From positions 2,418,001 to 2,482,000 of the forward strand of contig NZ_CP071955.1 in NCBI RefSeq assembly GCF_017603965.1: 64,000 nucleotides of DNA, read 5' to 3'. The stretch is from Xanthomonas fragariae. Its GTDB lineage: Bacteria; Pseudomonadota; Gammaproteobacteria; Xanthomonadales; Xanthomonadaceae. The translations under genes and the position numbers were made by a program. This document shows, piece by piece, positions 2,875-40,053 of this stretch; positions within the stretch are counted from its first letter, which is position 1, and every line of letters starts with the position of its first letter. The notes below the pieces were generated by a model. That model did not search any database. It was not told where the DNA came from and was given only the letters and a program-made list of their open reading frames with translations.

Positions 2875-2952
2875 GGAAAAACTCCTGATGAACTGCGGGG
2901 GTTGGCGGCCGGCGAGATAGCGTGCTGCACGAGAATGACACCCATAAAAAAA

Positions 2953-2972
2953 CCCGCATCGGCCGATGCGGG
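2953..2972 (-). terminator. Terminator hairpin (arms 3:4) of the asnB leader
   Basis: Perfect palindrome CCCGCATCGGCCGATGCGGG, followed on the minus strand by seven U. The four A after it on the other side also allow function on the plus strand. It is 78 bases upstream of the asnB ATG. It could be read merely as the dapE terminator, but the duplicate 3' arm inside the leader peptide argues for attenuation. Confidence 0.85.
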
Positions 2973-3006
2973 TTTTCTGATTGCTGGGCGTTTTAGTTTA
3001 CTTCGC

Positions 3007-3096
3007 CTAGTCGCAGACCCGCATCGGCAGCGCACGATTATTCGCGCGCAGATCGTTGCGGTTGGCGACATTGAGGTCGGCGATGTGGATAAGCAT
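3007..3096 (-). CDS. Asn-rich leader peptide of asnB (29 residues)
   Basis: ATG at 3096-3094 and TAG at 3009-3007. Five of 29 residues are Asn: positions 9, 12, 14 and the adjacent pair 19-20 (context LNVANRNDLRANNR). Three are Asp. The Asn pair lies about 10 bases upstream of the proposed antiterminator segment, the spacing expected for a stalled ribosome. The frame is closed upstream by a TGA just before 3120, and no other ATG is available. The Shine-Dalgarno is weak. It begins 72 bases after the dapE stop, so it could be read from dapE or from a promoter in that gap (a poor TTGCCG, 16 bases, TATTGA match exists). Confidence 0.65.
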   Translation of the reverse strand: MLIHIADLNVANRNDLRANNRALPMRVCD

Positions 3097-3167
3097 GCAG
3101 CCGACGCTAACCGTTCGTTTTCAATAGCGCAACTGTTTCAGCGGCAACGACGGCGGAAAACAGGCAA

Positions 3168-4401: not shown

Positions 4402-4543
4402 GAGCGGCTAGTAAAACGACTGCGCTCACCGCCAGGCGGGCGCGGCCGGTGCTCGGAATCGGCATGTACCACGCCTACACTCCGGTTCCTGCGCGCCGTG
4501 AGCACCCACCTGACGACTGCTCGCTACGGTTTGTTAGCCGCTC
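4402..4543 (-). mobile_element. MITE copy 1 (142 bp) related to the IS427-type element
   Basis: Terminal inverted repeats GAGCGGCTAGTAAAACGAC and CGGTTTGTTAGCCGCTC, flanked by TTA direct repeats (4399-4401 and 4544-4546). No coding capacity. The ends match those of the 866-bp insertion sequences at 41099 and 44931. The reverse complement aligns end to end with copy 2 at 39914, sharing for example GCACCGGCCGCGCCC. It fills most of the 355-base gap between dapE and the YffB-like gene; nothing else is seen there. Confidence 0.8.
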
Positions 4544-15970: not shown

Positions 15971-16206
15971 ATCCAAGTCGTTTTGCATGCCTCATACGCG
16001 TGCATAGCGTCGTTAACGTCGAACGTCATCGACGAATTCACACCTGCCGCCGCCATCCGTGCCGGGGTGCCCCGCATGGGGTTCGACACGGAGGCGACAG
16101 GGAAGCCCAACCCTGGAATTGTTCGCCTGCCCCCCTCGTAAGGGCCCGCCGTATGCGGATGCTCACTGGGACAAGCGCAGATTCCGATATATTAAGAGTT
16201 ACTTCA
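15971..16206 (+). promoter_or_regulatory. Long structured 5' leader of rpsB
   Basis: About 235 untranslated bases ahead of rpsB, with several GC-rich complementary blocks (for example GCCGGGGTGCCCCGC around 16060-16076). In enterobacteria the rpsB leader is bound by S2 for autogenous control of rpsB-tsf. A similar role here is inference from the position and length; no consensus structure was computed. Confidence 0.35.
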
Positions 16207-39913: not shown

Positions 39914-40053
39914 GAGTGGCTAACAAAACGTAGCGAGCAGTCGCCAGGTAGGTGCGGACGGCGCGGAGTAACCGCAGTGTAGAGCGATACACGAGGGTTC
40001 CGAACACCGGCCGCGCCCATCTGGCGGCTGCGCAGTAGTGTTGTTAACCACTC
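39914..40053 (+). mobile_element. MITE copy 2 (140 bp)
   Basis: Ends GAGTGGCTAACAAAACG and GTTGTTAACCACTC, flanked by TAA (39911-39913) and TAG (40054-40056). It aligns with the reverse complement of copy 1 over its whole length and shares ends with the IS427-type elements at 41099 and 44931. Confidence 0.8.

Follow-up and report, generated by a model that had tools for sequence, protein, structure and literature searches.

Sequence analysis indicated that asnB of Xanthomonas fragariae is very probably controlled by an asparagine-specific, ribosome-mediated transcription attenuator. The window referred to here is the whole stretch of DNA that was analysed, 64,000 nucleotides in length. Comparison of asnB loci revealed a leader ORF located between a promoter-like sequence and an intrinsic terminator, conserved codons in this leader for the product amino acid, an antiterminator exclusive of the terminator, covariation of the pairing arms, a spacing of these parts suited to attenuation, and conservation and linkage of the element to asnB. 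An asparagine-responsive attenuator had been proposed in a first-pass annotation of this DNA, and this reading was supported by the conserved Asn codons, the covarying copy of a terminator arm and a distribution over two families and a neighbouring one. A conserved promoter, the lack of two consensus Asn codons in the window's leader and the spread of the element beyond the xanthomonads were absent from that annotation.

Organization of the asnB locus

All of the attenuator elements were found, by sequence and folding, on the minus strand between dapE (4298-3168, assigned with NCBIfam) and asnB (2874-1180). The latter, the putatively controlled gene, encodes a glutamine-hydrolysing asparagine synthetase (NCBIfam PRK09431, 863 bits against a cut-off of 499) and is preceded by an AGGAG sequence at 2886-2882. 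The next long ORF past asnB (18-1115) is on the opposite strand; hence, asnB is probably the sole controlled gene. The leader ORF (3096-3007) consists of 29 codons and a stop, encodes MLIHIADLNVANRNDLRANNRALPMRVCD and has Asn codons at positions 9, 12, 14, 19 and 20, of which the adjacent AAT AAT pair (codons 19 and 20; 3042-3037) would provide the main control codons. The antiterminator arm, segment 2 (CCGATGCGGGT, 3027-3017), repeats the sequence of the terminator 3′ arm; it lies within leader codons 24 to 27 and is separated by 9 nt from codon 20. The terminator stem is formed by 2978-2965 (segment 3, the 5′ arm, common to both structures) and 2960-2947 (segment 4, the 3′ arm) around a 4-base loop, with a run of seven T/U (2952-2946) that overlaps the end of the stem. 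The 29-codon leader with five Asn codons including an adjacent pair, the 11-base copy of the 3′ arm in its last codons and the perfect terminator with seven U had all been described in the first-pass annotation and were confirmed at this locus, the copy extending to 12 bases with the preceding G. This terminator was visible in the sequence and fold and was not listed by a simple terminator scan, probably because the scan counted only T residues after the stem and several of those present here pair with A.

Elsewhere in the window, two copies of the Xanthomonas sRNA sX9 (RF02228) were detected at 4464-4539 (plus strand, 83 bits) and 39918-39992 (minus strand, 68 bits), and a match to the t44 RNA family (RF00127) at 16021-16111 (plus strand) scored 44.4 bits, just over the gathering score of 44. 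A second gene with a full Asn_synthase domain (PF00733, 387 bits) was present outside the window at G000:C1:2381491-2382606.

Asparagine codons of the leader ORF

At the frequency of Asn in three long genes nearby (29/1834 codons), the probability of at least five Asn residues in the 28 codons following the AUG was ~7e-5. None of 5000 first-order shuffles of the leader reached an exact copy of 11 bases of the 3′ arm, the longest being 10 as compared with 12 in the leader itself. A scan of the 64-kb window for small ORFs (10 to 70 codons with at least four Asn in the last 35 residues) detected five, and a strong terminator was present downstream of the asnB leader only, with a score of 46.5 versus scores of 23.5 and 21.5 after two of the others and no terminator after the remaining two.

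Thirty Xanthomonas loci were examined, and in all 26 of the 29-codon leaders codons 12, 19 and 20 specified Asn, so that the expectation of a leader frame and Asn codons conserved among relatives was upheld. Codon 19 exhibited synonymous exchange (21 AAT, 5 AAC). Codons 7 (3076-3078) and 10 (3067-3069) encode Asp and Val in the window and were each Asn in 23 of the 26 Xanthomonas leaders; the switch of the window strain may therefore be less sensitive. Over all of the leaders, the mean number of Asn codons was 6.5, an adjacent Asn pair was present in 139 of 143 loci and codon choice was unremarkable (444 AAT, 482 AAC). The ends of the Lysobacter and Rhodanobacter leaders differ (NNNNRNNASLPRAGD and NNNNRANNNANRWRARA, respectively) and yet the Asn block is kept.

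Conservation of the leader ORF could also be expected if it encoded a small functional protein acting in trans, the downstream hairpin being its own terminator, and a precedent exists in the peTrpL peptide of Sinorhizobium meliloti, as described in PMC7298713. Across families, however, conservation is largely confined to the Asn block and the segment 2 nucleotides, the N-terminal half varying widely in sequence and length, and searches with four leaders found no Pfam or NCBIfam family for the leader peptide. Furthermore, when the entire genomes of the window strain and of two family members were searched, strong covariance-model matches were located only at asnB (most of the remaining loci had been retrieved via asnB and are uninformative on copies of the element away from this gene). 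A trans-acting protein was, on these grounds, considered extremely unlikely as the explanation.

Covariation and folding of the terminator and antiterminator

Covariation was examined in an alignment of 69 diverse loci, kept from 143 after removal of near-duplicates; these loci had been pre-selected by script for a leader and terminator, the shuffles used for comparison ignore relatedness and segment 2 is also subject to codon constraint. The terminator helix (3:4) had 90.4% paired cells and changes on both sides in 8 of 12 pairs, with a covariation score of 0.311 versus 0.158 ± 0.009 for shuffled alignments and at most 0.154 when slid; its number of further pair types was matched by 119 of 500 shuffles. 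For the antiterminator helix (2:3), 77.4% of cells were paired, 7 of 11 pairs had changed on both sides and the score was 0.148 versus 0.090 ± 0.007 for shuffles (0 of 500 reaching this value) and at most 0.050 when slid. Two of five measures for 2:3 were not above shuffles, as the seven both-side changes were reached by 66 of 500 and the further pair types by 376 of 500. At pair 65-129, A-U replaces G-C in 5 of the 69 sequences with retention of the antiterminator pair, and the terminator pair involving the same base is U-G in three of these sequences and U-A in two. Consensus folding of the alignment with RNAalifold gave the terminator only, the antiterminator not being recovered. Compensatory changes in both stems, which had been anticipated in the first-pass annotation, were thus apparent in the covariation scores of both helices and not in every other measure for either. 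Independent drift of the second arm copy, which would have counted against an attenuator, was not what the covariation indicated, the copy changing together with the terminator.

The distances between the parts fitted the order and spacing claimed for an attenuator. In 110 of 139 loci, the nearest Asn codon starts 11 to 16 nt ahead of segment 2, a distance approximating that from an A-site codon to the front of the ribosome. In 100 of 139 loci, the end of segment 2 lies 6 to 9 nt upstream of the stop codon, close enough for a terminating ribosome to cover this segment. When folded, the RNA from segment 2 through segment 3 formed 2:3 in 137 of 139 loci and the whole untranslated leader formed 3:4 in 124. 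In the window, segment 1 (3061-3057) is predicted by the minimum-energy fold of the untranslated leader to pair with positions 3023-3019 of segment 2, and such folds likewise predict segment 2 to be held upstream in 118 of 139 untranslated leaders. With segment 4 present, 2:3 was thermodynamically favoured in only 53 of 139 loci, indicating that in most of them antitermination must be kinetic and occur during transcription.

Alternative terminator and antiterminator structures also exist in T-boxes and metabolite riboswitches, and another RNA element of this type might be supposed to control the terminator. No Rfam family was matched at its gathering score, the sequence upstream lacks aptamer-like conservation and it is the Asn codons that are conserved, leaving such an element a negligible likelihood. 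The best of eight sub-threshold Rfam matches (up to an E value of 1) were Thr_leader (22.4 bits, cut-off 55), isrK (21.8 bits, cut-off 50) and Leu_leader (21.2 bits, cut-off 50), and T-box was not among the eight. A T-box, a riboswitch and a known Rfam leader were accordingly ruled out by the absence of a match at the gathering score.

Promoter-like sequences and predicted leader start

A -35-like TTGCGC (3132-3127) is located 17 nt before a -10-like TAGCGT (3109-3104), which is itself 7 nt before the leader ATG. The conservation of these sequences was determined for 124 loci, 23 of 147 without a unique ATG candidate having been left out. TTGC ended 30 to 34 nt before the ATG in 124/124 loci, and TANNNT ended 5 to 9 nt before it in 88/124 (57/93 outside Xanthomonas) as compared with a mean of 2.4/124 in shuffles and 0 to 1/124 at other offsets; the -10 place was without TANNNT in 36/124 loci. 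A C residue directly preceded the ATG in 95%, and a Shine-Dalgarno-like motif was detected in 16/124. This spacing puts the predicted transcript start of the window at or next to 3096; hence, the leader ORF is probably leaderless. A search of open-licence literature found no study of mapped transcription starts for the genus Xanthomonas.

Proposed mechanism

We infer that transcription starts at the AUG, that the leader is translated and that the element responds to asparagine. Transcription would begin at or next to the AUG of the leaderless, Asn-rich leader ORF. With ample Asn-tRNA, the ribosome would reach the stop codon and cover segment 2, the 3:4 terminator would form and asnB would not be made. 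With scarce Asn-tRNA, stalling of the ribosome on the conserved Asn codons (in the window, 19 and 20) would leave segment 2 free just beyond it; 2:3 pairing would then precede the synthesis of segment 4, and RNA polymerase would read into asnB. If there were no translation, segment 1 would hold segment 2 and the terminator would form. The window's genome encodes an asparaginyl-tRNA synthetase (628 bits, cut-off 342.6), and Asn-tRNA can therefore report free asparagine.

Distribution of the element among asnB loci

The loci were assembled from three sources: 80 found by name; 80 regions found by place, hand-picked, before their leaders had been seen, for genus spread among the matches listed; and 30 genomes hand-picked for divergent AsnB and other families. 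The best matches of a DNA search were included as L084 to L112. This search, with window positions 2880-3120, detected matches in 180 of 395 family genomes, those outside the genus mostly spanning mid-leader to terminator. The family of named loci was assigned from records and AsnB similarity. Ten of 220 loci with identical last 220 nt were removed before the element was counted; two of those removed, L215 (Rhodanobacteraceae) and L221 (another family), were both without the element and were counted as their twins, L072 and L073, in the outgroup.

A script was used to detect ORFs that had at least four Asn among the last 35 residues and a strong terminator downstream. Of the 153 non-redundant asnB loci from the Xanthomonadaceae and Rhodanobacteraceae, 138 had both, as did 3/3 loci of a neighbouring family, in comparison with 0/37 outgroup asnB loci and 0/3060 first-order shuffles of the core loci. 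The arm copy was also present in 134 of the 153 core loci; taken alone, this measure is generous, since the search accepted the best match within the region where the copy was expected. For loci from other families of the order, the script gave 0/17; one of these misses, L063, had by eye a small version of the element with NNTN, an arm copy and a hairpin whose U run is weak. The predicted attenuator is thus one that reaches beyond the xanthomonads, to two families and a neighbour.

Seven of the 15 core loci missed by the script (L023, L028, L029, L040, L169, L187 and L205) had the element by eye. In L028 and L029 the hairpin is present and a proper T run is absent, and in L169 the leader and terminator are followed by ~350 nt of extra DNA before asnB. 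The element was absent from 8 of 153 core loci, as judged over 1500 nt upstream for L077, L199, L214 and L217 and by script alone over 480 to 600 nt for L210, L211, L212 and L220. Identity of AsnB to that of the window was at most 66% in seven of these eight, which probably represent another asnB lineage. L199 is a real exception, having no element and an AsnB 76% identical to the window's. L084, from a close relative, has two mismatches, one each in segment 2 and the terminator stem. In L017, L025 and L043, AsnB is 74 to 80% identical to the window's, the contigs are labelled Holophagales, Rhodococcus and Deltaproteobacteria and no small ORF with at least three Asn was detected within 1500 nt upstream; either transfer without the switch or mislabelled bins would account for these loci.

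A class-wide sample of 274 genomes was searched with a covariance model, R1; among the matches listed, the window's genome and two others of the same family scored 112, 98 and 91 bits. All other R1 matches listed scored below 40 bits, including one of 39.9 bits to the complementary strand of the terminator in the window. Nine lower matches (L232 to L240) were inspected; eight had terminator-like hairpins, the region for L239 was off-centre and the nearest small ORF had at most two Asn. At an E value of ≤0.01, 153 of 274 genomes were counted with R1, a number not taken as membership since its E values are rough.

Linkage to dapE

In principle, the hairpin could simply terminate transcription of the dapE operon, the Asn-rich ORF being fortuitous. 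dapE is directly upstream in the window, and no terminator was detected between its stop codon and the leader by the scan that also missed the leader hairpin. Among 40 named core loci with the element, dapE was located within ~0.3 kb in five (L003, L005, L006, L016 and L065) and 1.1 to 2.8 kb away in 13. The element, however, stays with asnB in the other 22, whose fetched flanks (up to 3 kb; <1 kb in L010, L034 and L041) showed no dapE and which include all 13 of the loci named Rhodanobacter, Dyella, Fulvimonas, Frateuria or Rhodanobacteraceae. The Asn codons, the frame and the arm copy are, moreover, all conserved. As the element accompanies asnB and not dapE, a dapE terminator was rejected as the full explanation and is very unlikely to be the sole role of the hairpin, which may serve both dapE termination and asnB control.

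Relationship to known attenuators

The leaders of the his, trp, leu, thr, phe and ilv operons are ribosome-mediated attenuators of Proteobacteria. The asnB element shares with them a short leader ORF in which codons for the product are abundant, a choice between 2:3 and 3:4 hairpins, a U run and a gene just downstream; it differs in its asparagine codons, its probably leaderless ORF and the absence of a match at the gathering score of any Rfam family, including RF00506 (Thr_leader) and RF00512 (Leu_leader). T-box riboswitches are known from asparagine genes of Firmicutes and respond to tRNA-Asn charging by reading uncharged tRNA directly, without a leader peptide. A response to tRNA-Asn charging is likewise proposed here, with the difference that a leader peptide is used and that the T-box model was unmatched.

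Two further systems are similar in other respects. The S. meliloti trpL transcript (rnTrpL) starts with the ATG of a leaderless leader ORF, an arrangement predicted here also, and its peptide acts in trans (PMC7298713); the amino acid, gene and bacterial class are different and trans action is reported for trpL. The cysS uORF motif uORFC-8-2 of Rhodobacterales, a candidate attenuator, resembles the asnB element in being lineage restricted, in having tandem control codons and in having been found by comparison, and differs in involving cysteine and a tRNA synthetase rather than asparagine and its synthetase (PMC8632094). No earlier description of an Asn-specific attenuator was found in open-licence literature, although a subscription paper or supplementary table could hold one. 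A term search of the main text of PMC2965389, PMC8632094 and PMC1183508 detected neither asnB nor asparagine. Attenuation of this kind is classical; what appears to be new is the amino acid, the gene and the leaderless arrangement throughout the lineage.

Implications

A wider reading, offered tentatively and thought less likely than not to hold in full, is that this is the first asparagine-specific ribosome attenuator, that it is old (Xanthomonadaceae, Rhodanobacteraceae and a neighbouring family) and that its leaderless ORF makes the switch promoter specific. Transcripts from the element's own promoter would be translated from the 5′ AUG and respond to asparagine. Read-through transcripts from dapE, having no Shine-Dalgarno sequence, would be untranslated at the leader and always terminate; hence, a single hairpin would stop transcription from the upstream operon constitutively and transcription into asnB in a regulated manner. 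A trans-acting role, like that in S. meliloti, could also be played by the leader RNA (~150 nt) once released, or by its peptide.

The asnB loci represent an extensive natural collection of attenuators that covary and whose leader ORFs are apparently leaderless, and a reporter for Asn-tRNA charging that is easy to test could be derived from the element. Ribosome attenuation of amino acid synthesis would extend to asparagine, in an order with many plant-associated members. Asparagine is a main nitrogen carrier in many plants, and the proposed attenuator would predict when bacteria with this element make their own.
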